Notes under the pieces: model-generated
What the model saw: only the letters and a program-made list of their open reading frames with translations
Told to the model about the DNA's origin: nothing
The model's database searches: none
Origin: Acidobacteriaceae bacterium
GTDB lineage: Bacteria > Acidobacteriota > Terriglobia > Terriglobales > Acidobacteriaceae
Reading direction: 5' to 3'
Assembly: GCA_030037705.1 (NCBI GenBank)
Contig: JASHQE010000304.1
Span: 1 to 38,316 of the forward strand
DNA length: 38,316 bases
Shown here: positions 1,153 through 15,835 of the stretch, piece after piece
Numbering within the stretch: the stretch's first letter is position 1
How the letters are laid out: each line of letters begins with the position of its first letter
Translations under genes and position numbers: made by a program

Positions 1153-1737
1153 TCACTTGCCCATCATGTAGACGACAGTGAATACGACGACCCACACCGC
1201 GTCGACGAAGTGCCAGTAGAGCGAGAGTACCTGGATGCGCTGTGTATGGCGCTGCTCCACGCGGCCGAGCAAGGTGAAGATCATGACGAGCGAGAGCATG
1301 AGCAGCCCAACGACTACGTGCGTGGCGTGCAGGCCGACAAGCGAGTAGAAGGTTGTTCCAAAGAGGTTGGTGCGGATGGTAAGGCCGTTCGTGTAGATCA
1401 GCCGCTTCCATTCGATAGCCGTGCCGGCGAGAAAGACGATGCCCAGCAACATCGTGAGCGCCCACCATGCTGCGAAAGCTCGAATGCGTCCGTGCTCAAT
1501 CGCGCGTTCGGCGAACACGATGGCGATGCTGCTCGAGAGCAGGCAGACGGTGTTGAACCACGGAACATCGAGAATCTGCGGCGTCGGCCCGGTCACGCTG
1601 CGCCCGATGTAGTAGATGTAGGCGACCACAAAAATCGTAAAGATCGCTGATTCGCCAATGATCAGCGAGAACATGGCCACACGGCCGCGCGAGGGCAAAC
1701 GCCAGCTTTCGTCCGCGAAGATTGGAATTGTGCTCAT
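1153..1737 (-). CDS. coxC: Cytochrome c oxidase subunit III
   Basis: This 194-residue protein has five predicted membrane helices and is the short form of subunit III found in caa3-type oxidases. The family hallmark is seen at the C-terminus, where a WHFVDAVWVVVF helix ends the protein; a TFYSLVGLHATHVVVG helix lies about 50 residues upstream of it. Its start ATG overlaps the coxA stop by four bases (ATGA). Subunit III carries no redox centre and stabilises the catalytic core in the cytoplasmic membrane. Identification is firm from motifs and operon order. Confidence 0.93.
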   Translation of the reverse strand: MSTIPIFADESWRLPSRGRVAMFSLIIGESAIFTIFVVAYIYYIGRSVTGPTPQILDVPWFNTVCLLSSSIAIVFAERAIEHGRIRAFAAWWALTMLLGIVFLAGTAIEWKRLIYTNGLTIRTNLFGTTFYSLVGLHATHVVVGLLMLSLVMIFTLLGRVEQRHTQRIQVLSLYWHFVDAVWVVVFTVVYMMGK

Positions 1738-3422
1738 CGCTCGTACTTCCAGTCAGGATCGTTAGGATGCTTGATATCCCAAAGCGGGCGCCGGCTGCGC
1801 ACCACCGGCTCTGTCTCGAAGTTGTAAGGCGGCGGGGGCGAGGGCGTTGACCACTCCAGAGTCCATGCATCCCAGGGATCGTTCCCGGCCAGTGGGCCAT
1901 GCAGGAAAGAGTCGATGATGTTCCACACCAAAATCAGTACGGCGACGGCCTGGATGAGTCCACCCGCCGAGATGATCATGTTGAGCGTGGTCCAGCCTCG
2001 ATCCGGTTCGTAGGTGTAGCTGGAGCGCGGCATGCCGAGAAAGCCGACAAAGTGCATGGTGTCGAAAGTCATGTGAAAGCCGATGAAGAAGAGCCAGAAG
2101 TGCCATTTGCCGAGCGTCTCGCTCAACATGCGGCCGGTGATTTTCGGATACCAGTAATAGATCGCGGCAAAGAAGCAGAAGACGAACGAGCCGGTCAGCG
2201 TGTAGTGAAAATGCGCGATCACAAAGTAGGAGTTGTGCAGTTGCCAGTCCCACGGCGCAACCGCGAGCATGATGCCGGTGAGGCCGGCGCACAGAAATTG
2301 AAACAGGAATGCGGTGCAGAACAGCATGGGCGTGGCAAAGCGGATTTTGCCACCCCACATGGTCGCAACCCAGTTGAATATTTTGATGCCGGTGGGAATG
2401 CCGACCATCATCGTGGAGAGCGCAAAGAAGGCGTTGCTCACCGAGGTCATGCCGATGGTGAACATGTGGTGCGCCCACACGCTCAGGCTCACGAACGCGA
2501 TTCCGACCGAGGCCGCAACCATCGCCGGATAGCCGAAGATAGCTTTGCGCGAAAACACCGGGATCACTTCACTGGCAATGCCGAATGCGGGCAGGATCAA
2601 AACGTACACTTCCGGATGGCCGAAGATCCAGAAGAAGTGCATCCACACTGTTGCCGAACCGCCCGCCTGCGTATCGAAGAAGTGTCCGCCGAGGTAGCGA
2701 TCGATGATCAGCATGACTTGCGCGGCGGTGAGCGGTGTAATCACGATCAGCGTGTCGGCGCTGGCCACGACCATCAGCCACACGAAGAGAGGCATGCGCA
2801 GCAGCGTCATGCCGCGGCACCGCATTGAAAACGCAGTCGCCAGAGTATTAATGGCTGCGCCCAGCGTACCGAATCCCATCACAATAAGAGCGAGTGCCCA
2901 GTAATCAGTGTTATGACCGGGCGAGAACGCTTTGGCCGTGAGCGGCGCGTAAGCCCACCAGCTCACGTCGGGCGCAGAGCCCATGCCGTACAGACCGAAG
3001 CCACCGATGAAACTGAAGTAGAGAAGCAGCCCGCCGAACGCACTCATCCAGAAACTGAATGCGTTCAGTCGCGGGAATGCCATATCACGCGCGCCGATCA
3101 TCAGCGGGACAAAATAGTTGCCGAAACCGAAGATCAGCGTCATGCCGACCAGGAAAACCATCGTGGTGCCGTGCATCGTGAAGAATTCGTTGTAGAGTTC
3201 GGCCGAAAGAAAGTGATTGTGAGGTATGGCGAGCTGAATGCGGATTGCCATAGCCTCGACGCCGGCGACGAGCAGGAAAACAAGCGCATACGCGATGTAG
3301 AGAATGCCGAGCTTTTTGTGGTCGACCGTGACGACCCAGCTATGCACCCATTCGAGCAGCGCCGCGCCGCGTGACGGTGTTGTATCCAGAGTGCCGGGAA
3401 TCGGATAGGTCTGATCGGCCAT
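1734..3422 (-). CDS. coxA: Cytochrome c oxidase subunit I, aa3-type
   Basis: This 562-residue haem-copper oxidase core reduces O2 to water and pumps protons across the cytoplasmic membrane. The low-spin haem ligand is in the TMHGTTMVF helix (H84), with the second in HFHYT (H406; H404 binds the high-spin haem). The CuB/Tyr motif GHPEVY gives H269, E271 and Y273, and the CuB pair is H318-H319. The glutamate in HPEVY and the lysine in PTGIKIFNW (K347) indicate an A-type enzyme with D- and K-channels. It sits 10 nt after coxB and overlaps coxC by four bases. The full length matches the family. Confidence 0.97.
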   Translation of the reverse strand: MADQTYPIPGTLDTTPSRGAALLEWVHSWVVTVDHKKLGILYIAYALVFLLVAGVEAMAIRIQLAIPHNHFLSAELYNEFFTMHGTTMVFLVGMTLIFGFGNYFVPLMIGARDMAFPRLNAFSFWMSAFGGLLLYFSFIGGFGLYGMGSAPDVSWWAYAPLTAKAFSPGHNTDYWALALIVMGFGTLGAAINTLATAFSMRCRGMTLLRMPLFVWLMVVASADTLIVITPLTAAQVMLIIDRYLGGHFFDTQAGGSATVWMHFFWIFGHPEVYVLILPAFGIASEVIPVFSRKAIFGYPAMVAASVGIAFVSLSVWAHHMFTIGMTSVSNAFFALSTMMVGIPTGIKIFNWVATMWGGKIRFATPMLFCTAFLFQFLCAGLTGIMLAVAPWDWQLHNSYFVIAHFHYTLTGSFVFCFFAAIYYWYPKITGRMLSETLGKWHFWLFFIGFHMTFDTMHFVGFLGMPRSSYTYEPDRGWTTLNMIISAGGLIQAVAVLILVWNIIDSFLHGPLAGNDPWDAWTLEWSTPSPPPPYNFETEPVVRSRRPLWDIKHPNDPDWKYER

Positions 3423-3432
3423 GGTTCGTCTC

Positions 3433-4491
3433 TCAATGCAGGGTAGTTAGATAGGCCACGACTTCGTCCGTTTCCTGATCGCTGAGCTGCATGGCAGGCA
3501 TCAGCGCGCCAGGCTTCACCGTGTTCGGATCTTGAATCCACGCGCGCAGATTGTCAGACGTGTTCGCCGCTGCACCCGCTGCAATCGTCGCGCGGCTCAT
3601 CAGGTGCGTGAGGTCAGGACCGAAGGTTCCCTTGGCGGCCGTGCCGGAGATGGTGTGACAATTCGCGCACGCTTGAGTCTCGAAGACGTGGCGTCCGGCG
3701 ACCGCATCCGCATTGTGCGCGTCAGGTTGCATGGCAGGCCGCTGCTCCGCTTTGACCCACGCGGCAAATTGATCGGGCGTATCAGCATAGACACGTAGCA
3801 ACATCTTGGCGTGCTCGACTCCGCAAAACTGGGCACATTGGCCCAGATACAAGCCGGTGCTCTGCGGATCGATCCACATCGCGTTCGGGTGGTTAGGAAT
3901 GAGATCGGTTTTTCCGCCCAGTTGCGGAACCCAGAAGCTGTGATCTACGTCGGCCGAGAGTAGTTGCAGAAATGTGGGTCTTGGCATTGTGGAGGTGCTG
4001 ACGGGAACATGCAGCTCGTTCGCGGTGACAATGCCCAACTTGGGATAGCGGAACTCCCACCAGAACTGATGGCCAACCACGATGACGTCAAGCGCGGACT
4101 GAGGCTTGGGGGCATCCTGAATGGCAAAGATGACGCGCGCGGTCGTGAGAAACAAGACGACCACGATGAGAACGGGAATTACTGTCCACGCGAGTTCCAC
4201 TTGCGTGCTGCCGTAGATTTGCGCCGGCTCGTGCTCCGCGTCGGTCTTGCGCGCATGGAACCTGATGATGACGAAAGCGAGCAAGCCCCCGACGACGAGA
4301 AAAATGGCGCCCGTAATCACTAGGACGAATTGCGAAAGCGCGTAAATCTCATGCGCCGGCGTGGATGCCGGCGCCAGAATGGAGGGCGTGGTTAGCGCGC
4401 CCTGCGCGCCGGAGGGCATTGCGCCCATGCCGGCCAGGGCCAGGGAAAAAACCTGTGCGCGAGTTAGGAGAAGACTGTGCCGTCGCTGCAT
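3433..4491 (-). CDS. coxB: Cytochrome c oxidase subunit II with fused cytochrome c domain
   Basis: This 352-residue caa3-type subunit II begins with a signal-like hydrophobic leader (about 1-30). Two membrane helices follow (about 50-78 and 98-120), then the periplasmic CuA domain with H184, C219, C223, H227 and M230 visible. After a short linker comes a monohaem cytochrome c domain: CANCH at 275-279, with a distal methionine probably M331 or M334. It accepts electrons from cytochrome c and passes them via CuA to subunit I. It is the first gene of the leftward oxidase operon. A palindromic site lies 66-99 nt upstream of the start codon, so control by the adjacent FixJ-type regulator is plausible but inferred. 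Confidence 0.95.
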   Translation of the reverse strand: MQRRHSLLLTRAQVFSLALAGMGAMPSGAQGALTTPSILAPASTPAHEIYALSQFVLVITGAIFLVVGGLLAFVIIRFHARKTDAEHEPAQIYGSTQVELAWTVIPVLIVVVLFLTTARVIFAIQDAPKPQSALDVIVVGHQFWWEFRYPKLGIVTANELHVPVSTSTMPRPTFLQLLSADVDHSFWVPQLGGKTDLIPNHPNAMWIDPQSTGLYLGQCAQFCGVEHAKMLLRVYADTPDQFAAWVKAEQRPAMQPDAHNADAVAGRHVFETQACANCHTISGTAAKGTFGPDLTHLMSRATIAAGAAANTSDNLRAWIQDPNTVKPGALMPAMQLSDQETDEVVAYLTTLH

Positions 4492-4556
4492 ACTCCTCGA
4501 CCTTCCGCGGGCGATGGATTGCGAGTCCCATTACGCCAGAACAGCGAAGACGAGTC

Positions 4557-4594
4557 TATTGAACGAAGGTATCGACCGATGCTTTGGTATCACG
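4557..4594. promoter_or_regulatory. Palindromic operator-like site A (coxB promoter region)
   Basis: The left half-site TATTGAACGAAGGTATCGA (4557-4575) meets an imperfect inverted half at 4576-4594; about 10 of 19 positions pair. The left half closely matches half-sites of two better palindromes at 5485-5522 and 5631-5668. It lies 66 nt upstream of the coxB start, a usual place for an activator. Binding by the FixJ-type regulator encoded at 4710-5366 is an inference. Confidence 0.55.
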
Positions 4595-4709
4595 CGCCAT
4601 GATTGAGAACTCATGAACATCTATCCCGCGCGGCGCTATTCGGAACGGTGATTACTGATCAGCCGCAAGTCTCATCCGGAGTGCGGCGCAAGGCGCTTAT
4701 TCAGGGTCT

Positions 4710-5366
4710 TCAGAATCGTGGACCGCTACGCATGATGCTTTGTGCCGGAACGAGATGAGACGCGAGCTTTCCCGCCATCTTAATCAGATCGGCAATGGAG
4801 TGGGCCTTCATCTTTTGCATGACCCTTCCACGGTGTGCCTTCACGGTAACCGCAGTGATACCGAGTTCATCGCCTACCTGCCTATTCAACAAGCCAGATA
4901 CGACCAACGACATCACTTGCCGTTCACGGTGGGTAAGTGACGCGTAACGGTCCCTAAGCCTCCCCATCTCCACCTCACGTGAAAGAGCAACCTGGCTAGA
5001 TTCAAGAGCTGCCCGGATGGCGGTCAACAGCACGTCATTATTGAAGGGCTTGGTCAGAAACTCCTGAGCTCCCGCTTTCATCGCCCGCACCGTCATTGAC
5101 ACATCTCCATAGCCCGTGATGAAGATGATGGGCATATCGTGCCGTTCGAGCGCTACGCGCTCCTGCAGATCCAGACCGTTCAGGCCGGGAAGCGACACAT
5201 CGAGTACGAGGCAATTTGGAACAAAGACACGAGGATGTGCCAGAAATTCCTGCGCCGATCCAAACATCACCGGCTGCCAACCCTCAAAGCGAATCAGGCA
5301 TTCCAGCGATTCGCGCACAGAGAAGTCATCGTCGACAACGAATACGATTGGTGTGGTTGGCGACAT
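4710..5366 (-). CDS. FixJ/NarL-type response regulator, copy 1
   Basis: This 218-residue two-domain regulator has a receiver domain at about 5-120 with acidic pocket D12-D14, phospho-acceptor D56, switch T84 and lysine K106 (LTKPF). A LuxR/NarL-type helix-turn-helix follows at about 140-205, including the family signature LTHRERQVMSLVVSGLLNRQ. It is typical of FixJ-like activators that answer a histidine kinase. No kinase gene is present in the window, so it is an orphan here. It is transcribed leftward, 218 nt from the coxB start and in the same direction. A 219-residue paralogue lies at 6831-7490. A purine-rich stretch with AGG about 8 nt before the ATG supports the start. Confidence 0.93.
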   Translation of the reverse strand: MSPTTPIVFVVDDDFSVRESLECLIRFEGWQPVMFGSAQEFLAHPRVFVPNCLVLDVSLPGLNGLDLQERVALERHDMPIIFITGYGDVSMTVRAMKAGAQEFLTKPFNNDVLLTAIRAALESSQVALSREVEMGRLRDRYASLTHRERQVMSLVVSGLLNRQVGDELGITAVTVKAHRGRVMQKMKAHSIADLIKMAGKLASHLVPAQSIMRSGPRF

Positions 5367-5484
5367 GACTATAACCTCACTCCACTGCTACTCCCAGTGG
5401 AATCGCTCGCCCATTCGGAGTTTTCCGTCATCCGACTTCGTCCCGGATGACGACACCATTAGGCCGCAGGGACGAAAACGAATC

Positions 5485-5522
5485 TATTGGACGAAAGTAT
5501 TGATCAATACGTCCGTTCAATA
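5485..5522. promoter_or_regulatory. Near-perfect 38-bp palindromic operator-like site B
   Basis: The left half TATTGGACGAAAGTATTGA (5485-5503) and the reverse complement of the right half, TATTGAACGGACGTATTGA (5504-5522), agree at 16 of 19 positions, with centre TTGATCAA. The site lies 119 nt upstream of the response-regulator start at 5366. Size and symmetry suggest a dimeric, perhaps tetrameric, DNA-binding protein. Autoregulation by the neighbouring FixJ-type protein is inferred. Confidence 0.65.
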
Positions 5523-5630
5523 CATGCACCATTTATTTTCTCGGCTGATCCGGATAGACCGATGGCAACGACGCGGCCAGCCCGGTGCCTGCCGGTAACG
5601 GATAGTCAGTCACAACGCCCGCGAAAGTTC

Positions 5631-5668
5631 TATTAGACCAAGGCATTGGTCGATACCTTCGTCCAATT
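5631..5668. promoter_or_regulatory. Palindromic operator-like site C
   Basis: The left half TATTAGACCAAGGCATTGG (5631-5649) and the reverse complement of the right half, AATTGGACGAAGGTATCGA (5650-5668), agree at 13 of 19 positions. The right half is nearly identical to the left half of site A. The site falls almost exactly midway between the divergent response-regulator and carbonic-anhydrase start codons (about 283 nt from each). Confidence 0.55.
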
Positions 5669-5931
5669 GTCGCAATTCTGTTCGTCTGGCTTAATCACGA
5701 CATCAGCCTCGCGACCAAGGTTGCGTGAGCCGCTGGGACCAATCCTCGTTGGAGCCAAGCCGATGATCCCCCGATCTCTAGGCGTCGGAAGCGGAAGAAT
5801 CGTGAATTTGACCGGGGAAAAAAGAGACTGCGGAGCCCATACGAGAGGCTTGGATCCACGCAGACAACATCAAACCACGCGTTGTGGCGAACCGAATCCC
5901 GCACTTGCAATGTGACTAAGGAGAATCCCAA
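5669..5931. other. Intergenic leader of the carbonic anhydrase gene
   Basis: No coding region, RNA gene or convincing sigma-70 hexamer pair was found in this stretch between site C and the carbonic anhydrase. A good Shine-Dalgarno (AAGGAGA) lies just before the start at 5932. Confidence 0.4.
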
Positions 5932-6444
5932 ATGAGCTTGATTGAACGCGCGATTACCGCGAACCGCAAGAATGCAGAGCACCATGATCCTTCGCTGGCA
6001 AACAAGCCAGCGCCGAAGATTGCGATCCTTACGTGTATGGACCCCCGCCTGAACCAACTACTCCAATGGTTAGACATCAAACCGGCCGATGCGGACGTGA
6101 TTCGGAACGTCGGGACGGCAGCAACGGAAGATGTTGTGCGGTCTCTCATGTTCTCAATTCACGTTCTGGGTGTGCGAGAGATCATGATCGTTGGGCACAC
6201 CGGCTGCGGGATGGAAATGTTTTCCGAAGAGGATTTCGAGAAGCACGTTCACACACAATGCGGTGTGTGGGCGGTAGCTCCGGACAAATTCCACTGCTAT
6301 TCCGACGTGAATGGGCAGACACAAAAGCAGGTACTGAAGCTCAGGTCGCACCCGTGGATTCCCGCGAAGGTCGTTATTCGTGGATTTGTTTTTGATTTGG
6401 CAACAGGCAAACTAAGAGAAGTAACGCCTAAAGACGACAAATAG
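5932..6444 (+). CDS. Beta-class carbonic anhydrase
   Basis: This 170-residue cytosolic enzyme interconverts CO2 and bicarbonate. The zinc ligands are visible as C35 (in CMDPR), H89 and C92 (in HTGCGM), with the D37/R39 dyad and the RNVG motif at 58-61. This is the short beta-class form. A clear Shine-Dalgarno (AAGGAGA) fixes the start. It is divergent from the first FixJ-like regulator, with palindromes B and C in the shared gap, so co-regulation with respiration is possible. A short weak hairpin (GGCCC/GGGCC, about 6457-6474) follows the stop but lacks a T-run. Confidence 0.92.
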   Translation: MSLIERAITANRKNAEHHDPSLANKPAPKIAILTCMDPRLNQLLQWLDIKPADADVIRNVGTAATEDVVRSLMFSIHVLGVREIMIVGHTGCGMEMFSEEDFEKHVHTQCGVWAVAPDKFHCYSDVNGQTQKQVLKLRSHPWIPAKVVIRGFVFDLATGKLREVTPKDDK

Positions 6445-6830: not shown

Positions 6831-7490
6831 ATGCCACAAGACAGTTCAATTGTGTTCGTCGTTGACGACGACGTGTCTGTGCGCGAGTCTCTGGAACTAT
6901 TGATTCGCTGCGAAGGCTGGCAGCCCGAGATGTATGCGTCGGCGCAGGATTTTCTTGCGCGCCCGCGCGTTCTTGAGCCGAGTTGCCTGATACTTGACGT
7001 TGCCCTTCCCGGACTGAACGGTCTGGACCTGCAAAGGCGTCTAGCCGCCGAACGGGCCGAGATGCCGATCATCTTCATCACTGGACACGGCGACGTGCCG
7101 ATGACCGTCCGGGCCATGAAGGCCGGGGCCGTCGAGTTTCTGACCAAACCCTTCAGCGACGATGTGCTGCTGGCTGCCGTAAGGCAAGCGCTGGAGCGTA
7201 GCCGCGTTGCCCTGGAACGCGCACGCGAGAGGCACGCACTCCGGGAGTGTTATGCGTCTCTTACCGAGCGTGAGCGGCAGGTGATGGCTCTGGTCGTCTC
7301 CGGGATGCTGAATAAGCAGGTCGGAGACGAACTTGGTATCAGTGAGATCACGGTGAAAGCGCACCGAGGCAAAGTGGTGCAGAAGATGAAGGCCGACTCT
7401 CTCGCTGATCTGGTGAGAATGGCCGCAAAGCTTCGGGTCACATTCGATCCCGGCTCAACTCGGGTTGACGAGCACTCCATCGATCGATAA
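6831..7490 (+). CDS. FixJ/NarL-type response regulator, copy 2
   Basis: This 219-residue regulator has a receiver domain at about 5-120 with D12-D14, phospho-acceptor D56, T84 and K106. A LuxR-type helix-turn-helix occupies about 145-205 ([20 protein letters not shown]). It is clearly paralogous to the protein at 4710-5366 across its whole length and points the opposite way. GAGG about 9 nt before the ATG serves as ribosome binding site. No partner kinase is present here, and no copy of the 38-bp palindrome was seen upstream. The recognition helices differ at several positions ([13 protein letters not shown] against ITAVTVKAHRGRV), so overlapping but not identical targets are possible. Confidence 0.92.
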
Positions 7491-7584: not shown

Positions 7585-8085
7585 ATGAGCCAAAAGGATG
7601 AACGGTCGAAGATGGGCCATAGGATGATGCGCAACGACCAAGTCGCCGTTTTGCTTCCAATGATAGTTGGCTCAATCGCGGCTCTCTGCACAATTGTGAT
7701 TCATTCCCTGGCATTGGGGGTGACGGTGCGTTTTTTTCGCCACGAAAGAAGGCTGGGACATGTAGGATCGGTAGTTCGAATGAATCTCGGAATCTTTGTG
7801 CTGGCGATATCATTCGCCTTTCTGGCGCACCTGATTGAGATTGCGTTATGGGCTGCCTTGTTCGTCCTATGCGGAGAATTCAAATCCCCGGAGCTCGCAT
7901 ACTACCACTCAGCGGTCAACTACACGACTTTGGGTTATGGCGATTTGATCATGACGCCGTCGTGGAAGCTTCTGGGGCCTCTCGAAGCGGCTGATGGAGC
8001 ACTGATGTTTGGTGTCTCCACCGCTATGATCTTCGCGATCGCCCAACGCTTGATGCGCGCCAAGTTTGGCAGCTCACCTTTGTGA
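7585..8085 (+). CDS. Two-TM-type ion channel protein with K+ selectivity filter
   Basis: This 166-residue membrane protein has hydrophobic segments at about 21-48, 67-96 and 131-153. A pore loop between the last two carries the filter TLGYGD at 115-120, the signature of the Ion_trans_2 potassium-channel family. No cytosolic RCK/TrkA domain is attached. The start is uncertain: ATGs at 7612 and 7624 are in frame and the ribosome site is weak for all three. A small potassium or cation channel in the cytoplasmic membrane is the best reading; selectivity beyond the filter motif cannot be judged. Confidence 0.8.
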   Translation: MSQKDERSKMGHRMMRNDQVAVLLPMIVGSIAALCTIVIHSLALGVTVRFFRHERRLGHVGSVVRMNLGIFVLAISFAFLAHLIEIALWAALFVLCGEFKSPELAYYHSAVNYTTLGYGDLIMTPSWKLLGPLEAADGALMFGVSTAMIFAIAQRLMRAKFGSSPL

Positions 8086-8100
8086 CAGGAGTAGATCGTG

Positions 8101-8889
8101 ATGGGAATACAGTCCACTCCCGTAGTTCCCCAACTCGGTGAATTGCTGCGCTACTGGAGGCAGGAGCGCGGCAAAAGCCAACTTGCTCTCTCGCTCGATA
8201 CAGGAATTTCGCAGCGTCATCTGAGTTTCGTGGAGAGTGGGCGAAGCGCTCCCAGCCGGGATTTTCTTTTCACTGTGTCCGATGCTTTGAACATTCCTCT
8301 CCGTGAGCGCAATGTACTGCTGCTTGCTTCCGGATACGCTCCCCTCTACGGCGAGCGGAGCATGGATGCCGGGCAGATGGCGATCGTGACCCGGGCGGTC
8401 GACCGGATGCTCGCGCAGCATGAGCCGCATCCCGCGCTGGTGCTGGACCGGCAATGGAATGTGGTGCGAACCAATAAGGCCGCGCCGCGATTCTTTGGCG
8501 CATTCGTCGATTTGGAATCGAGACCTAAGCCGCGCAATCTTCTCGACCTGATGTTCGATCCGGCGGGGATGCGGCCTTTTGTCGAGGAGTGGGAAAAGGT
8601 TGCTGCCGGCCTGCTGCAAAGGGTCCGGCGGGAAGCGGTGGGGCAGGTCGTCGATGCAGAACTTCGAGAGCTGCTGGAACGATTGCGCAAGTATCCGGAT
8701 GTTGCGCAGCTAAAGTCGCCCATGGCGCCTCAGAGTCCGGTGCTGCCCATCACCTTCCGGCGCGGAGACGAGCGCTTCTCGTACTTCTCGCTGATTACAA
8801 CTGTCGGTACGCCACAGTGCATCACCGCGCAAGAACTGCGCGTGGAATGCATGTTTCCGATGGATGCCAAGGAGAATGAACCTGCATGA
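8101..8889 (+). CDS. XRE-family transcriptional regulator with MmyB-like ligand domain
   Basis: This protein of about 262 residues has an N-terminal helix-turn-helix (about 10-65; SQLALSLDTGISQRHLSFVE). A MmyB-like, PAS-related effector domain follows from about 100 to the end (HPALVLDRQWNVVRTNKAA; later FSYFSLITTVGTP). AGGAG at 8087-8091 gives 9-nt spacing to ATG 8101; an adjacent GTG at 8098 is the alternative start. The gene overlaps the next by four bases (ATGA), so the regulator probably senses a substrate or product of that DJ-1/PfpI protein. Such regulators often control a neighbouring oxidoreductase or hydrolase; the ligand is unknown. Confidence 0.88.
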   Translation: MGIQSTPVVPQLGELLRYWRQERGKSQLALSLDTGISQRHLSFVESGRSAPSRDFLFTVSDALNIPLRERNVLLLASGYAPLYGERSMDAGQMAIVTRAVDRMLAQHEPHPALVLDRQWNVVRTNKAAPRFFGAFVDLESRPKPRNLLDLMFDPAGMRPFVEEWEKVAAGLLQRVRREAVGQVVDAELRELLERLRKYPDVAQLKSPMAPQSPVLPITFRRGDERFSYFSLITTVGTPQCITAQELRVECMFPMDAKENEPA

Positions 8890-9632
8890 GCACCTCTTTA
8901 GTGATGAGCGAGAGACCCGGGCCGCAGGTCACGACGCGGCCTGTTTCTGTGGGTTGCCTCATTTTCCCAGAGATAGATCAGATCGACTTCACGGGCCCTT
9001 TTGAAGTTCTTTCACGCATGCCGCACACCACGATTCAGATCCTGGGGAAAGAGCGCGCGCCGGTTCGCGACGTGCAGGGGCTTCGGCTCATGCCGGATGT
9101 GAGCATCAAGGAAGCTGGATCCTTGGATGTTCTCGTTGTGCCCGGCGGTTATGGACAGCAGGCGCTGATGCACGATCAAGAAGTGCTGGCGCTCATCCGC
9201 AAACAGGCAGAAGCCGAAAGACTGTTGTTTTCCGTCTGCACCGGAGCTCTGCTGTGTGGCGCGGCTGGCGTTCTCGTCGGGAGACAGGTGACGACGCACT
9301 GGTCCGCGCGGCACCTGATGTCTTACTACGGCGCGATTCTCGCCGATGCGCGGGTAGTCGTAGACGGCAACATCATCAGCGCCGCCGGTGTCACGGCGGG
9401 GCTCGATGCGGCGCTTGTGCTGGTGTCTCTCCTGAGAGGCGCCGCAGCAGCTCAAGAGATCCAGCTCGCTATTGAGTATGCGCCGAATCCTGTTTTTCAT
9501 AGCGGGACCCCAGACACCGCACCGGCTGACGTTCTGCGGAGCTTTCAGAGAAAGTATGAGCCCATTGAGGCTGCGAGAGAGGCTGAGGCCTTACGTCACG
9601 CGACAAGCAATGCACGAGAGCAGGTTGGGTAA
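8886..9632 (+). CDS. DJ-1/PfpI family protein, isonitrile-hydratase-like
   Basis: This 248-residue class I glutamine-amidotransferase-fold protein has a probable nucleophile elbow at C118 (FSVCTGALLCGAAGVL). The upstream acidic motif QIDFTGPFEV contains D34. Together these match the InhA/cyclohexyl-isocyanide hydratase branch and not the chaperone or protease branches. The PGGYG motif (86-90) and VTTHWS after the elbow also fit. The N-terminus is about 20 residues longer than usual. It is translationally coupled to the XRE/MmyB regulator upstream. Hydration of an isonitrile or a related small molecule in the cytosol is the likely role; the true substrate is not evident. Confidence 0.82.
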   Translation: MSTSLVMSERPGPQVTTRPVSVGCLIFPEIDQIDFTGPFEVLSRMPHTTIQILGKERAPVRDVQGLRLMPDVSIKEAGSLDVLVVPGGYGQQALMHDQEVLALIRKQAEAERLLFSVCTGALLCGAAGVLVGRQVTTHWSARHLMSYYGAILADARVVVDGNIISAAGVTAGLDAALVLVSLLRGAAAAQEIQLAIEYAPNPVFHSGTPDTAPADVLRSFQRKYEPIEAAREAEALRHATSNAREQVG

Positions 9633-9816
9633 CCCCGCCGAGCTCGAATTCATTCGTCTCGACGGAAGCGTGCTCTTTCAGCAGCATCTCCAGTCAACGC
9701 GGAGACGATTTTCTGCATCTGTGACGGATCAGGAAGGCCCTATTCCGGTATGTCCCGATCCATCAACTTCTGTAACAAATTAAAGCGGTCCGATCCTCCG
9801 AGGTCCCAATGCCTAA
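9633..9816. other. Non-coding gap after the PfpI gene
   Basis: No gene, terminator-like hairpin or recognisable repeat was found here. Confidence 0.3.
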
Positions 9817-9829
9817 ACTATAAGGGCAG
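9815..9829. repeat. Third copy of the fucosidase-promoter repeat
   Basis: AAACTATAAGGGCAG matches 14 of 15 bases of the repeat unit at 11993-12007, in the same orientation. The copies flank the fucosidase gene and are 2.18 kb apart. Confidence 0.5.
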
Positions 9830-9981
9830 GTGAACTTTATCGATACCACCACCGGCCAAACGCTCGGGAGTACTTTCCTGCCATGTTCGTGGGCGCCGAC
9901 GGCATTGATCCCGAATGGGGCGTAAGTTGCTATAGTTCCGACGAGGCCGAACTGAATGCCGCCCAAGTGGCTTTTTCTTAA
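9817..9981 (+). pseudogene. C-terminal fragment of a DeoR-family sugar regulator
   Basis: One frame reads GELYRYHHRPNAREYFPAM and continues FVGADGIDPEWGVS, then DEAELNAAQVAFS and a TAA at 9979-9981. The GADGIDPEWG element followed by an EAELN segment resembles the effector-binding domain of DeoR-type regulators of sugar metabolism, where the motif precedes an EAExN region. The usual 25-30 residues between GGxL and the FxGADGID strand appear shortened, the frame is closed upstream by TAA 9814-9816, and no helix-turn-helix is present. It lies beside the fucosidase gene, so it may be what is left of that gene's old regulator. The family match is by eye only. Confidence 0.5.
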
Positions 9982-10058
9982 GGAAAACGCCGCGGAGCCA
10001 TATCAATTTCCCTCACAGTAACTAGGCCGTCGGCCCATCCTCCAGAATTGCTTCCCAT

Positions 10059-11843
10059 TCAGCTCAGTGCGATCTTTACCGCCACTCCGTAGTCATTCAC
10101 CGCCCAGGACTGCCGAGGCAACTCTAAACGCAGAGCGTCGGCACCCTGGGTCCACTTGATCTTCGCGTCCGAGCCGAACACCGTCACATTCAGAATCTTC
10201 CCGGGATTGGTCTTGCTCGCCGAACCCAACGATGCAATCTGCGTCTCTCCCTCGGGCCATCCCAGGAAGATTGCATAAATCGCCGTGTTCGCTTTGTTGC
10301 GCGTGAAGCGGATGTCTTTGCTTCCCAGAGCGCCGATGCTTGCGCCTTTGAACGATCCGCTCTCTACCTTGTTCGGTCCCTCGCCGTACACCGTCCACGG
10401 CCTCGTCTCGAAGATTGCCTCACCGTGGATCTTCAGCCATGCCGCAATTTCATCGAGCACAGCAATTTCTTTGCTGTCGATTGTTCCATCCGGCATTCCT
10501 GGCAAATTCAGGATAAAGGTGCCATTCTTGCTTACCGTGTCGACGAGCCAATGGATCACAGTACGCGGCGGCAGATAGCCTCCATATTCACCCGGTTCTT
10601 CATAGAGTCTGCGTTGGTAGTGCCATTCTCCGATGCATGTCTCTGACTGCCATGCATACGGCATAATCCCGCTCGTCAGACCGCGCTCGTAATCCGCAAC
10701 TAACGCCTTAGCCAGCCTGTCCGGTACTTGTTTGCCGTTGAGTACTGCCTCCATCTTTCCGCGTGTCTGCAGATTGTGATTATAAAAATACGCGCCAATA
10801 TTCATGCCGGCCCAACCCAGCGGGAGCAGGGAATTATCAAAATAAAGCAGGTCGGGATCGTGTTGATCGATCAGGTCGCGCGTCCGGTCATAGAAATGCC
10901 TTACATAGGAGGCATCCGGCAGAGCATTCTTCGGATGCTTCACGCTGTAGAGCATCTGCGGATCGAGTCCTTCCCACCACTGGTCTTTCCCCTCAGCCTT
11001 GGTCATCCGTCCGTCGTACGGCACACTCGGATGCAAACCATTTTTGTCAGCTCCGTGCGAAGTCTGGAACCACCACCAGTTGCGTGCCTGGTGTACGGTC
11101 ACACCAAAACGCAATCCTTGGCGCCGCGCCGCCGCGGCCCACTCGCCCACCACATCGCGATGGGGTCCATGATTCATGGCATTCCAGGGCTGATGCTTTG
11201 AACCCCATGTATCAAAACCGTCATGATGATTCGCTAAGGCGATAAACAGGCGCGCTCCGGCGCTCTTGTATCGCTGGATGAGAGCTTCCGGTTCCCAATT
11301 GAGCAGCGTCCATTGCGCGCACAGATCCTTGTAGCCAAACTGTGAGGGATGCCCATAATGTTGCATCTGGAACTTGTAATCGGGAGAGCCTTCTGTATAC
11401 ATCTGGCGTGCGTACCAGTCACCATGTTCCGGAACACACTGCGGGCTCCAGTGTGCCCAGATACCGAACTTCGCGTCACGATACCACTCGGGCACGTCAT
11501 ATTGCAGCAGCGAATCCCAGGCTGGCTGATAGGGCCCCTCGCCGTTAAGCCCGCCTAGTGGAGCCTGCATGGGCACGCCGTCCCAAGAACCGCCTGGCAA
11601 CTCAGGTGGATCACCCCACTCCGCCGGGGACCAGGTCGCGTCGTCCAGTTTGGTTGCAGTGATCTTGCCGTCCACAAGTGTGTAGAAGACCCGCTTGTCC
11701 TCCGGTGTGGCGCAGAATTCTTCATACGTCTGATGAAGCACATTGAACTCGGCAGGTGCGTTCGTCTCTGACAGCCCCTTTACAGGGATCGCTCGGGCTG
11801 CTGCAGCCGTTGCGATCAGCTTGCAGAAGTCTCTTCTTCGCAT
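10059..11843 (-). CDS. Tat-exported alpha-L-fucosidase, GH29
   Basis: This 594-residue glycoside hydrolase probably releases L-fucose from glycans in the periplasm. ATG 11843 is chosen because AAAGGAG (reverse complement of 11852-11858) lies 8 nt upstream; a GTG at 11852 would overlap that site. The N-terminus RRRDFCKLIATAAAARA is a twin-arginine signal. GH29 features are the NHHDGF motif (H206, H207, D208) and the likely nucleophile D336 in LLYFDNS, where most members have WFDG. A C-terminal beta-sandwich follows from about residue 480. An N-terminal insert of about 90 residues precedes the barrel. The gene has its own promoter and operator-like sites. It lies next to, and in the same direction as, a TonB-dependent receptor. 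Confidence 0.88.
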   Translation of the reverse strand: MRRRDFCKLIATAAAARAIPVKGLSETNAPAEFNVLHQTYEEFCATPEDKRVFYTLVDGKITATKLDDATWSPAEWGDPPELPGGSWDGVPMQAPLGGLNGEGPYQPAWDSLLQYDVPEWYRDAKFGIWAHWSPQCVPEHGDWYARQMYTEGSPDYKFQMQHYGHPSQFGYKDLCAQWTLLNWEPEALIQRYKSAGARLFIALANHHDGFDTWGSKHQPWNAMNHGPHRDVVGEWAAAARRQGLRFGVTVHQARNWWWFQTSHGADKNGLHPSVPYDGRMTKAEGKDQWWEGLDPQMLYSVKHPKNALPDASYVRHFYDRTRDLIDQHDPDLLYFDNSLLPLGWAGMNIGAYFYNHNLQTRGKMEAVLNGKQVPDRLAKALVADYERGLTSGIMPYAWQSETCIGEWHYQRRLYEEPGEYGGYLPPRTVIHWLVDTVSKNGTFILNLPGMPDGTIDSKEIAVLDEIAAWLKIHGEAIFETRPWTVYGEGPNKVESGSFKGASIGALGSKDIRFTRNKANTAIYAIFLGWPEGETQIASLGSASKTNPGKILNVTVFGSDAKIKWTQGADALRLELPRQSWAVNDYGVAVKIALS

Positions 11844-11898
11844 TTTTGTCACTCCTTTGGGGCACTGCGGGCCGACCTATGGACCTCAGGTATTTTCC

Positions 11899-12097: not shown

Positions 12098-12114
12098 CGC
12101 GAACGATGAGAGGA

Positions 12115-15100
12115 TTAGAAATAGTATTTTAGGGCCAATTGGAAGAAACGCGGGTCGGGAGAATAGTTCCCGATAAAGCGAGTCGAAGTGATCTGGCCGC
12201 TGGTAACTCCGCCTATACCGGTATCCGACGGCGCTCCCCACGCTGGTGTGTTGAACAGATTGAATACGTCAGCGCGGAACTGCAGATATTGTTGTTCTAC
12301 GGTGGGGAAGTTCTTGAAGACCGACATATTGATGCGCTCGTATCCCGGTTCAGTGATCTGCTCGCGTCGGCCGCCGGTATAGGCCAGAGCGGCTGTCCCG
12401 GTGATATATCCGGAGGTGCCGAAGCTCGATGGATAGGGTGGGTTAGAGAAGGCGCAAGGGTTATACCAGTTTGTGATGGTTCTCGCCTTCGGCGCGCAAG
12501 GAATTCCGGGGTTGCCCGCAGGCGCCGACCCTCCGCTTTGCCATGGATCGCCCGTCTGGATTGCGAAAGTGCTGGCGCCGGAGATCCCGCCAACCACCTG
12601 GCCGGTTGCCGGGCTAATGGCGCCCCGGTCAGAGACGGTAAACGGTTCTCCGGTTTGCGCATTGAAGATCATGGACGACGACCATCCGCCAGCCAGGAGG
12701 TTGAATACCCCAGGCCTGGTCATGTATTTCCTTCCCATGCCGAAGGGAAGGTCGTAATTGCCAACAAACGTAAATCGCTGGCGCACATCAAAGGGCGAAT
12801 CTGCGTAGTCCACTCCCAGCCCGAACATGTTGTAGTTCTTATCCCCTCCTTCGCCGTTGCTGGGCAGCGGCTCGCGGGAGTCATCGAGAGAGTGCGACCA
12901 GGTGTACGTCGTGAGGTAACCCAGGCCATTTGTGAAGTGACGCTGAAGGGTCGCCTGCAAGCTGTTGTAATCAGAGATCGCCACCGCACTGATGTTATGG
13001 AAACTGCCGAAGTCCGGAAACGGCTGCAGCGACATCGTATTGGTCCCCGATGGCGCAATGGCCGCTGAACTGTTCGGCCATACCACAACCTGAAGGTGCC
13101 GCGCCACGCTGCCCACATAGGCCAGCGTCAGCGAGGTGCTGTTGGCGAAGGCGTATTCGGCGCTGAGGTTATATTCGACAGTGTATGGGCTTTGCCAGTT
13201 TGCATCGAAACCGGCCAAACCAAGGCCAAACGGGTTAAAGCCGCCGGATGTGGGTGGACCGTTCTTGAGGGTCGCGCCGTTGGTTGCGCACGATGCCGCG
13301 CCAGCATTACAGGAAGGCGCTCCCCAGAAAAGTTCGAGATCGTAAGGGTAATTTGCGCCAAGATTGGGATAGTTGCCCAGGTTTTCGATGCCGCCATAAA
13401 AGATGCCTGCCCCCAGACGCGCCACCAGGCGATCGGTAGCCTGGTACGAGAACCCGATCCGCGGCGCGAAGTTGGTCTTTTGCGAGTTCACGAGAGAGCG
13501 GTTGCCGGTATAAACAATTGTGATGTTGTCCTTCGCTGCTTGTGCGAGGAAGGCGGCATTCAACGCAACGTTCTTTTGCGATGCCGGAAGCAGATATTCC
13601 GCCTTGCCAGCGTCCGGAACATTGATGGGGCCGATGGGAATGATGTTTCCTTGCTGGTCGCTGCGCTCAACAGGCGGCTGGAAGAAGTCGTAGCGCACGC
13701 CGAGATTCACGGTCATCTTACGCGAAAGCTTCCAGTCATCCTGCGCATAACCGGCGCGATACCAGCGCCCCAGGTTGTGCTGGATGAAACTGGAACTATA
13801 GTCTGTGTTCATGTAATCGGCTAGAAAGTCGGCAACGCCTGAGCCGGTATACGCCACTCCGGGGCTGCCGGTGAAATGGCCGTCGTATCCCGGCGCCGTG
13901 TGCGCGAACGTGGGCTGCAGCACCGCGTAGCGGATATTCTGGAAATCCACGCCGAACTTCAGTGCGTGGTTCCCGCGTATCCAGGTCAGGTCGTTAATGA
14001 TCTGATAGACATTTTGGTGTTCGGGTGAGGGCTGGAACAGTGGAGTCCCCATGCCGTTGATCCCGTTGACGGTGATATTGGGCAGACCGCCATTGCCGGC
14101 TTGATAGGGAATGCCGCCCAGCCCGTATTGCGCAGCGAGGTTTACGTTGGCGCTGGGCTGCTGCCAGTTGAAATATCCCCAGTTGTAGCTGAAACGCGCC
14201 TGGTTTACCAAGGATGGCGAGAAGACGTGATTCTCGCTATACATGACGTTGTCGCCATCATTGATGAATGTGCCGTCGTTAAAGAGCGGACCTCCATCCA
14301 GGATCGGGCCGAGGGCGGTTTGAGCGGTCTTGTTTTCGTGCGACCGGGTCACGCGCCCGAACATCTGATCTTTTGCGCTGAGGTTGTAGTCCACGCGGGT
14401 GTCGAACTGGTTGGTGTTATCCGTATACGCGAGCGAGGTCGAGTAGTTGTTGTAAGTCTTCCCGTTATTTGCATTGGGCTTTGGATAAAGATTCAAGAGC
14501 GCTGAGGCAATAGAACTGATCTCGCTCGCACACATAATATTTTGGGCGTTGCCGCACGCCGAGCCGAGCGGCGCCGTGCCGGCTGATCCAGGCTCGTAGA
14601 GCAAAGTGGGCTGAGCAGCTCCCGTAAGAGCGGTGTTGAGCAACTCGGTGAAATTGCCGCTGCGCTCCAGCATTGTGGGTATGGTAATGATGCTGGGAGA
14701 GTCTTCGACGATCCGAAGCCCCTCGTAATCGCCGAAGAAGAAGAGCTTGTTCTTCACAACCGGCCCACCCAATGTGAAGCCGAACTGGTTTTGGTGATAA
14801 GGCAGGACGCTTGTGGGTGTGGTGACGCCAGAGGCCCATTCTGTGGGTGAAGCTTCCCCGAGATCGTTGTTACGCATGTACTCCCAAGCATCGCCGTGAA
14901 CCTGGTTGGTTCCGGACTTGATGCTGGCATTGACGACTGCCCCCGCGGAGTGGCCAAACTCTGCCGAGAACGATCCTGTCTGCACCTTGAACTCTTGCAA
15001 TGCATCCGGGGGTGGCTTGACGACATAGCTGGCGCCATTCAAAAAGTCGATGGCGTTTGAGTTGTTGTCTACGCCATCGAGGATGAAGTTGTTTTGCGTA

Positions 15101-15687
15101 GCTCTCATGCCGTTGGCCGTGAAATCGCCATTTCCTTGTCCCCGGGAGCCGTTGGAAGGCGGAATACCCGCCGCTTCCTGGGCAATGAACACGTAATTCC
15201 TCCCGCTCAGCGGCACGTCATTAATCGTTTTGGTGCTCATGACCTGGCCTGTGGAGGCATCTTCGGTCTGCAGGAGTGGGACGGATGTGGCGTTCACCTG
15301 CAGGGTTTCCGTTACGTTGCCTACCTTGAGCTGAATGTTGGCCTCAAGCCTGCCCGCCACGTGCAGTTCCAATCCGCTTTCGGTAGCATTTTCAAAGTTG
15401 GGCGCACTCACGGTGATGGAGTAGGTTCCGACCTTGACGGGTTGGAACGTGTAAAGACCGCTTGAGTCGGTTTGCGAGCTTAGCACCAGTCCGGTGCCGG
15501 TATCCGTCAGCCTGACGCTGGCGTTTGGCACCGCATCCCCCTTGGGATCGGTTACCGTGCCGGTTATCGCACCCTGGTCAAGCTGACCGAGGGCCAGATG
15601 GGGCATGAGGATGAAGGCGGCGACAGACAGCGGAATGCACCAACGTCTGCACCAGTTGTGTCTTGTGTTTTGAAGCATTGCGTACAT
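12115..15687 (-). CDS. Oar-like TonB-dependent outer-membrane receptor
   Basis: This protein of about 1190 residues takes up ligands across the outer membrane. The start at 15687 (MYAML) is preferred because GGAGGT lies just upstream; a longer frame begins at 15738. A signal peptide ends near LALGQ (about 36). It is followed by a carboxypeptidase-regulatory-like domain (about 37-125; GAITGTVTDPKGDAVPNASV), a plug domain (about 130-270; ILDGVDNNSNAIDFLNG), and a long beta-barrel ending in LALKYYF with a terminal aromatic residue. This architecture is expanded in Acidobacteria. No clear TonB box was picked out. It lies downstream of a divergent membrane regulator and upstream of the fucosidase, suggesting glycan or peptide uptake; the ligand is unknown. 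Confidence 0.92.
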   Translation of the reverse strand: MYAMLQNTRHNWCRRWCIPLSVAAFILMPHLALGQLDQGAITGTVTDPKGDAVPNASVRLTDTGTGLVLSSQTDSSGLYTFQPVKVGTYSITVSAPNFENATESGLELHVAGRLEANIQLKVGNVTETLQVNATSVPLLQTEDASTGQVMSTKTINDVPLSGRNYVFIAQEAAGIPPSNGSRGQGNGDFTANGMRATQNNFILDGVDNNSNAIDFLNGASYVVKPPPDALQEFKVQTGSFSAEFGHSAGAVVNASIKSGTNQVHGDAWEYMRNNDLGEASPTEWASGVTTPTSVLPYHQNQFGFTLGGPVVKNKLFFFGDYEGLRIVEDSPSIITIPTMLERSGNFTELLNTALTGAAQPTLLYEPGSAGTAPLGSACGNAQNIMCASEISSIASALLNLYPKPNANNGKTYNNYSTSLAYTDNTNQFDTRVDYNLSAKDQMFGRVTRSHENKTAQTALGPILDGGPLFNDGTFINDGDNVMYSENHVFSPSLVNQARFSYNWGYFNWQQPSANVNLAAQYGLGGIPYQAGNGGLPNITVNGINGMGTPLFQPSPEHQNVYQIINDLTWIRGNHALKFGVDFQNIRYAVLQPTFAHTAPGYDGHFTGSPGVAYTGSGVADFLADYMNTDYSSSFIQHNLGRWYRAGYAQDDWKLSRKMTVNLGVRYDFFQPPVERSDQQGNIIPIGPINVPDAGKAEYLLPASQKNVALNAAFLAQAAKDNITIVYTGNRSLVNSQKTNFAPRIGFSYQATDRLVARLGAGIFYGGIENLGNYPNLGANYPYDLELFWGAPSCNAGAASCATNGATLKNGPPTSGGFNPFGLGLAGFDANWQSPYTVEYNLSAEYAFANSTSLTLAYVGSVARHLQVVVWPNSSAAIAPSGTNTMSLQPFPDFGSFHNISAVAISDYNSLQATLQRHFTNGLGYLTTYTWSHSLDDSREPLPSNGEGGDKNYNMFGLGVDYADSPFDVRQRFTFVGNYDLPFGMGRKYMTRPGVFNLLAGGWSSSMIFNAQTGEPFTVSDRGAISPATGQVVGGISGASTFAIQTGDPWQSGGSAPAGNPGIPCAPKARTITNWYNPCAFSNPPYPSSFGTSGYITGTAALAYTGGRREQITEPGYERINMSVFKNFPTVEQQYLQFRADVFNLFNTPAWGAPSDTGIGGVTSGQITSTRFIGNYSPDPRFFQLALKYYF

Positions 15688-15835
15688 GTCACCTCCAGAT
15701 ATTGCCTTATTGAAACCTTGCTGAAAATCTGTGGGCACGGTGGCGATTGGTGGATGGCTACGCCATGTATGCCGGCTGGGTCCATTCCTGCTGGGCTTTG
15801 AGTAAGCGTTTTCTCCAGCCCGCCAACCTATCCCT

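Follow-up and report, generated by a model that had tools for sequence, protein, structure and literature searches.

What do three similar 38-bp sites do around the gene of a FixJ-type response regulator, and which protein reads them? The sites lie in a stretch of 38,316 nucleotides from an Acidobacteriaceae bacterium (GCA_030037705.1, contig JASHQE010000304.1), which we call the window. The original prediction, made from the letters of the window, saw in them three palindromes that link an orphan, NarL-type regulator to a cytochrome oxidase operon and a carbonic anhydrase gene, and took this layout as the mark of a small regulon. The positions and letters of all three sites are correct as given there, and our results support the regulon, with the window's FixJ-type protein or a close paralogue as the likely regulator.

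Taken as palindromes, the sites are uneven: 10 of 19 positions pair in the first and 13 of 19 in the third, while the 16 of 19 predicted for the middle site is confirmed. The half-site pattern that they were said to share, TATTRGACGAAGGTATYGA, fits five of the six half-sites with at most three mismatches, against a mean of 0.01 and a maximum of 1 in 100 shuffles of the window; the sixth (4576-4594) does not fit and, as an ATAC-N4-GYAT dyad, represents a different type of arm. Each site consists of two adjacent 6-4-6 dyads and has an orientation, in that the arm ending in YCAATA or YCAATT points to the gene served, namely coxB, the regulator gene and the carbonic anhydrase gene, respectively (Table 1). 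In an alignment of the sites of this genome with relatives' contigs selected for their half-sites, the gene-proximal arm reads TCRATACCTTSGTCCAATA in gene sense and is followed by GATTC-like bases and then by TTCTGGCYTAATC, usually 16 nt past CCAAT. This last element, which resembles an extended -10, stands at a fixed distance from the gene-proximal arm. The other arm is often a different and more symmetrical dyad, ATAC-N4-GTAT. The first site lies 65 nt from the start codon of coxB (4491), where 66 had been reported.

Table 1. Sites, promoter-like elements and genes of the window
Feature	Position	Strand	Sequence and remarks
Arm A, gene-proximal, coxB promoter	4557..4575	-	TCGATACCTTCGTTCAATA in gene sense; composite score 78.9
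Arm B, upstream, coxB promoter	4576..4594	-	CGTGATACCAAAGCATCGG in gene sense; dyad ATAC-N4-GCAT
Extended -10-like element, coxB	4530..4541	-	TTCTGGCGTAAT; in register in 4 genomes; putative -10
coxB, 352 aa, first gene of auxiliary cox operon	3433..4491	-
coxA, 562 aa, downstream of coxB	1734..3422	-	named from sequence
Arm A, gene-proximal, regulator promoter	5485..5503	-	TCAATACTTTCGTCCAATA; composite score 62.9
Upstream arm, regulator promoter	5504..5522	-	TATTGAACGGACGTATTGA in gene sense
-10-like element, regulator	5458..5469	-	CTGCGGCCTAAT; putative promoter element
FixJ-type response regulator, 218 aa, receiver + GerE	4710..5366	-	recognition helix TVKAHRG
Upstream arm, carbonic anhydrase promoter	5631..5649	+	TATTAGACCAAGGCATTGG
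Arm A, gene-proximal, carbonic anhydrase promoter	5650..5668	+	TCGATACCTTCGTCCAATT; composite score 80.0
-10-like element, carbonic anhydrase	5684..5695	+	GTCTGGCTTAAT; putative promoter element
Beta-carbonic anhydrase (PF00484), 170 aa, predicted target	5932..6444	+
Second FixJ-type paralogue, 72% identical	6831..7490	+	helix TVKAHRG

At loci picked by the half-site only, a -10-like element (at least 9 of 13 letters) stands beside 26 of 34 half-sites, 25 of the 26 at one offset, compared with 2 in shuffled flanks. A second dyad (at least 6 of 8 letters) lies 17 or 18 bp upstream of 25 of the same 34 half-sites, against 3 after shuffling, with other distances or no dyad otherwise. Because the second dyad recurs at this distance, the 38-bp palindrome appears to be two adjacent dimer-sized sites. 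We discarded the idea that the binding unit is one 38-bp palindrome, since many sites have one TATTGGAC-type arm while the other arm is the ATAC-N4-GTAT dyad; the unit first proposed is replaced by an oriented operator-plus-promoter with two tandem dyads. If transcription is assumed to start 7 nt past the -10-like hexamer, the dyad centres are predicted near -43 and near -61. G042 (L052, L051) and other genera commonly have a different arm, with GATGGTATYGG (CCATCGTCCAAT in gene sense), which may represent a sub-class of sites or the preference of another paralogue.

The -10-like element has no A at -11, so its critical second base is not that of the sigma-70 -10. By itself it is not in excess (8 matches in the genome, while the reversed control gives 12), and a role as a general promoter motif of this genome thus finds no support. 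Because of this deviation and the lack of excess, another sigma factor may read the element. Specifically, the regulon's own ECF sigma factor could recognise TTCTGGCYTAATC in place of the housekeeping sigma, with activator and sigma factor acting together; the predicted target set includes genes for such factors, and the deviant base and the absence of any excess outside the operator would suit such a factor. The distance to a possible -35 is not one typical of ECF promoters, however, and the sigma genes differ between genomes. We consider recognition by an ECF sigma factor unlikely.

The genome from which the window comes is represented by 5.13 Mb in 332 contigs and is 85% complete. With at most three mismatches, the 19-mer matches it at 10 places, compared with 2 for the reversed pattern, and all 10 lie on C56 (the window) or C163. 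The composite of operator and -10-like element, at the same tolerance, occurs at 8 places on two of the 332 contigs (reversed control, 0): before coxB, the regulator gene and the carbonic anhydrase gene on C56, and at five further places on C163. A random frequency across the genome had been named as the result that would speak against a regulon; the motif is far above chance.

We searched 298 genomes, this one included, with a pattern joining the end of the arm to the -10-like core (GTYYAATNG, a gap and TGGCNTAAT). It gave 41 matches in 16 genomes, 36 of them with the same 17-nt gap, and the reversed control had none among the matches listed. The upstream ATAC, which lies outside the search pattern, is present in 33, 33, 32 and 35 of the 35 fetched gap-17 sites, column by column. 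A 65-column matrix built from these 35 sites, with a reported score of at least 14, found 79 distinct sites in 573 kb, a number that is not a genome-wide rate because the loci were chosen for having sites; 35 of the 79 are the training sites, and 22 others score at least 40. One shuffle of the same 573 kb gave no site, with a top score of -1.4. The window shuffles, the matrix shuffle and the reversed genome control together rule out a chance origin of the sites.

Nor is the motif a common acidobacterial sequence. Half-sites with at most two mismatches were found in 60 of 119 genomes, many of them single, as chance predicts, with clusters in a few, and the composite was present in 3 of 30 loci of such half-sites. 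A species-wide scan with the arm and the central bases, covering 84,980 species by one genome each, returned 21 stretches, 19 of them from Acidobacteriota. The composite is present in 18 of the 21; those without it are the stretches from a planctomycete and from Reichenbachiella and one from Acidobacteriaceae (L074).

Several copies of an imperfect inverted repeat might also be a mobile or structural family, REP or MITE-like, rather than operators. The flanks of these copies differ, however, and the copies stand before start codons in a fixed orientation and at a set distance from the -10-like element; orthologous genes retain single copies upstream, and no Rfam match was found in the window. 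On these grounds we reject a mobile repeat or RNA element, and give such a family next to no weight.

The window regulator joins a receiver to a GerE/LuxR-type HTH domain (PF00072 and PF00196). Asp56, Thr84 and Lys106, read from the sequence of the 218-aa protein, are all present in the receiver, which makes control by phosphorylation likely. Scoring the best 10 first-look candidates per genome, we found orthologues of at least 59% identity in 22 of the 298 genomes. Regulator and site occur together in 13 genomes, the regulator without the site in 9, the site without the regulator in 3, and neither in 273 (Fisher p 1.4e-14, or 1.6e-13 without the window's own genome); the corresponding counts within the genus are 6, 3, 0 and 71 (p 2.8e-7), and all these p-values are only a guide, because the 59% cut-off was chosen after seeing the list and the genomes are related. 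A composite without an orthologue above the cut-off was found in G185, G231 (where the match may be chance) and G292, and among the half-site loci in G024 (score 60) and G038 (score 24); for three of these five, the assembly or the search is incomplete.

As a follow-up, we fetched the regulator-gene regions of 11 genomes that had no exact match in the 298-genome search. Composite sites lie near regulators with VKAHRG or VKTHRG in 7 of 8 genomes (G005, G048, G061, G158, G173, G196 and G216), of which the blind part is 4 of 5, since the half-sites of G005, G048 and G061 had been seen before. G155 has the regulator with no composite site nearby, and the genomes with other helices (G215, G092, G007) gave composite sites in 0 of 3. 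No site was found near the second regulators on G050 C126, G020 C129 and G140 C92 or in the G159 stretch 36000-55000.

The recognition helix follows the site. VKAHRG is present in 16 of 16 regulators (at least 59.6% identity) from site-bearing genomes and in 0 of 7 homologues from site-free genomes of the same set. In a tree of 50 homologues, from which a length filter left out the window paralogue at 6831-7490, 31 proteins with VK[A/T]HRG and one with VKFHRG form a clade of 32 with support of 100/100, which includes proteins from gp6 and Blastocatellia acidobacteria and from the cultured Silvibacterium bohemicum. Each of S. bohemicum, one gp6 genome and one Blastocatellia genome has a VKAHRG regulator (61-69% identity) and a composite near the regulator or a paralogue. 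In the planctomycete, whose arm match is by chance, regulator (E 1e-35) and site are both missing; Reichenbachiella lacks the regulator, too, and its one match has three mismatches.

A real operator might still be read by another protein, such as a different response regulator, the MmyB-like protein or an unrelated activator, with the FixJ-type gene merely a target. The site stands directly before the regulator gene in three cases (this genome, G020 and G042), the exception rather than the rule, which is equally consistent with a target, and no composite was found directly before the paralogue at 6831-7490. Several regulators also share the neighbourhood: at least four of KAHRG type or close to it are encoded on this genome's two contigs, and C163 carries one with KVQRS as well. 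Against another reader stand the co-occurrence of the site with the KAHRG clade across the phylum, the association of helix and site, and an AC-N4-GT geometry like that of StyR as far as the excerpts of the StyR papers describe it. This association evidence was gathered for the KAHRG clade; the window's MmyB-like protein and the C163 KVQRS regulator are other candidates in the neighbourhood. We think a reader other than the FixJ-type protein and its paralogues quite improbable.

The window's MmyB-like HTH regulator gene (8098-8889) overlaps a DJ-1/PfpI gene (8886-9632), and no composite site was found at this pair; DJ-1/PfpI genes with the operator occur in G042 (L052) and G041 (L058). The window also encodes a small ion-channel protein (PF07885; 7585-8085), a relative of which, falling in the same cluster, lies near the regulon contig of G050 (L054 5186-5668), and an alpha-L-fucosidase beside a large protein that resembles a TonB-dependent receptor (10059-11852 and 12115-15738, the latter named from sequence).

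To define the targets, we began with coxB, for which a search at E 1e-60 or better gave 22 loci in 16 of 26 genomes. The site is present before the coxB genes of this genome (C56), G042, G050 and G020 (81-83% identity), and the operator and -10-like element of these four loci align without gaps. It is absent at G040 (77%), although that genome has the regulator, and at 17 other coxB loci, a few of them short of upstream sequence. Conservation before orthologous coxB genes, proposed as a check, therefore holds for four of the five with at least 77% identity (this genome's own included) and fails for the G040 orthologue and for coxB paralogues. This genome has three coxB genes (window 3433-4491, G000 C89:9019-10032 and G000 C236:62215-63174), and only the one in the window has the operator. 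The site therefore marks one auxiliary cox operon, and one of the three coxB genes gains a predicted condition-dependent role.

The carbonic anhydrase gene has the site in five genomes, namely this one, G020, G042, G050 and S. bohemicum, whose protein is 86% identical to that of the window; in G014, the carbonic anhydrase gene comes after a site-bearing sigma gene. The predicted targets go beyond the oxidase and the carbonic anhydrase. On C163, a divergent pair of sites lies between TolC and HlyD/FUSC efflux genes, one site precedes a second TolC-HlyD-MFS set, and a weaker arm precedes an ECF sigma / SDR / RidA set; two ORFs after C163 sites have no Pfam match. Elsewhere, the first genes after sites encode oxidoreductases (NDH2-like, lipoamide-dehydrogenase-like, zinc alcohol dehydrogenase and aldehyde dehydrogenase), alpha/beta hydrolases, epoxide hydrolase, glyoxalases, enoyl-CoA hydratase, DJ-1/PfpI, a thioredoxin-like protein, cytochrome P460, class II aldolase and ECF sigma factors, and the predicted targets in several genomes also include efflux pumps. 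The sites of the gp6 genome lie upstream of genes for an SDR and an epoxide hydrolase. The same site is kept before orthologous genes and co-occurs with the regulator, as is the case in a regulon.

The regulator had been called an orphan. We found no kinase in the window, but on C163 histidine kinases, a MEDS-domain protein and receiver-only proteins adjoin a paralogue with the same recognition helix. The candidate kinases there are encoded at 7856-10729 (three PAS domains) and 12109-14367 (PAS and GAF), the latter adjoining the MEDS gene. Genes for a regulator, a MEDS protein, a kinase and a receiver stand in a row on one strand in G133. The site-bearing contig of the gp6 genome (L221) encodes a kinase, a receiver and a MEDS protein of 71% identity. 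A MEDS-domain protein beside a PAS/GAF kinase was seen in two genomes (L009 12109-15021 and L117 13492-16393). The MEDS-domain protein is a possible sensor partner.

We put at roughly 80% the probability that a StyR/TodT-like response regulator of the FixJ subfamily uses the sites as its operators and activates a clustered regulon of respiration and detoxification. The regulator would most likely be the 218-aa protein at 4710-5366, or close paralogues with the TVKAHRG helix. A kinase encoded elsewhere, for which there are candidates on C163, would phosphorylate it and so lead to a dimer. One dimer would occupy arm A, the degenerate [T/C]RATAC-N4-GTCCAAT dyad with its centre near -43; another would sit on arm B, whose ATAC-N4-GTAT core lies 17-18 bp upstream of that, near -61. 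In the manner of class II activation, the dimer on arm A may then contact RNA polymerase, at a promoter that has an extended -10-like element but lacks a good -35. Predicted to be switched on are the regulator's own gene, the beta-carbonic anhydrase gene and the auxiliary cytochrome oxidase operon, together with efflux genes and probably the ECF sigma factor / SDR / RidA set of C163. Judging from this list of targets, we would guess that the signal is a membrane-, redox- or xenobiotic-type stress.

The same arrangement could serve repression, with the regulator on its two dyads blocking the promoter: the sites overlap the -35 region. A fixed register with a weak promoter that has no -35 is what class II activation usually looks like, however, and it argues for activation here. 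What passages of PMC2442086 say of StyR bears on both sides, since StyR represses once several of its sites are filled, while StyR-P activates from STY2, a site at about -40. Repression seems to us an improbable reading of the sites.

More tentatively, as a possibility rather than an expectation, the activated regulon may be part of a stress system found across the phylum, in at least three groups of Acidobacteriota, in which paralogous KAHRG regulators read one shared tandem-dyad operator. Several KAHRG paralogues would receive their input from PAS/GAF kinases, stand-alone receivers and a MEDS-domain partner; the outputs would tie the auxiliary oxidase and carbonic anhydrase to efflux, to detoxification of aldehydes, epoxides and glyoxals, and to ECF sigma factors; and the genes would travel as clustered, patchily distributed islands.

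On the sequence evidence, the sites are real, non-random and conserved, and probably belong to a new StyR-like regulon with an operator of its own and a predicted mechanism of a known kind. We found no description of the operator, the tandem-dyad layout or the target set in open-licence PMC papers, and searches for the motif strings gave, by title, no match on bacterial regulation. Acidobacteriota are dominant and poorly tractable soil bacteria whose regulatory sites have hardly been described; the outcome here is a precise predicted model of operator and promoter and a one-line marker for the regulator, VK[A/T]HRG. The cultured strain S. bohemicum S15, which is harmless and was isolated from soil, permits direct testing, because it has the regulator (two VKAHRG genes) together with the carbonic anhydrase site and sites at sigma-factor genes.

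Among solved chains, the window regulator best matches 1yio (182 bits, 7e-53), which we take to be StyR, and then FixJ 5xso (140 bits, 6e-40); the NarL and DevR chains score near 52 bits. This corrects the NarL-type label: StyR is closest by sequence, FixJ next and NarL far below. DosR/DevR of mycobacteria is similar in having a two-component regulon with a conserved palindrome, and the DosR box is also of AC-N4-GT type, but the structure of DevR (3c3w, 8e-13) matches much more weakly, and operator letters and phylum differ. With FixL-FixJ the regulator shares a common domain plan, and 5xso is its second closest solved chain. FixJ systems control oxidases too, although FixJ sites differ from the window operator, no FixK or fixNOQP was found among the targets seen, and the oxidase here is of coxBA type. 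FixLJ systems also control fixK or nifA and have a haem-binding PAS domain in FixL, and among the targets scanned here neither nifA nor a gene for such a domain stood out.

The closest likeness is to StyR, TodT and TmoT (StyS-StyR, TodS-TodT), which also combine a receiver with a FixJ-type HTH, in about 210 aa. According to passages of PMC5874301, StyR-like regulators read ATAAACN4GTTTAT, a 6-4-6 dyad with the AC-N4-GT core found here, and StyR contacts it through the named residues Lys175, Val176 and His179. Passages of PMC2442086 add that StyR-P forms tetramers over two sites and activates from a site at about -40; here we predict two cooperating dimers and, from the position of the -10-like element, a site at about -43. 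The outer operator bases are CGAT/CCAAT in the window, in contrast to the ATAA of the StyR excerpt, and by alignment and the numbering of PMC5874301 the window protein keeps the Lys while Val is replaced by Ala and His by Gly. A kept Lys with Ala and Gly elsewhere fits the kept AC-N4-GT core and the changed outer bases. The dyads abut here (17-18 bp), whereas those of StyR are about 60 bp apart in the same excerpts, and many scattered promoters are served rather than one catabolic operon, in another phylum and with other targets. StyR- and TodT-like regulators have a cognate sensor kinase with PAS domains encoded next to them; here, PAS/GAF kinases are found near the C163 paralogue and in G133, and none in the window. 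Because the Val and His residues and the outer bases differ from those in the excerpts, we place the regulator with StyR in geometry and fold, and outside the TodT operator class.
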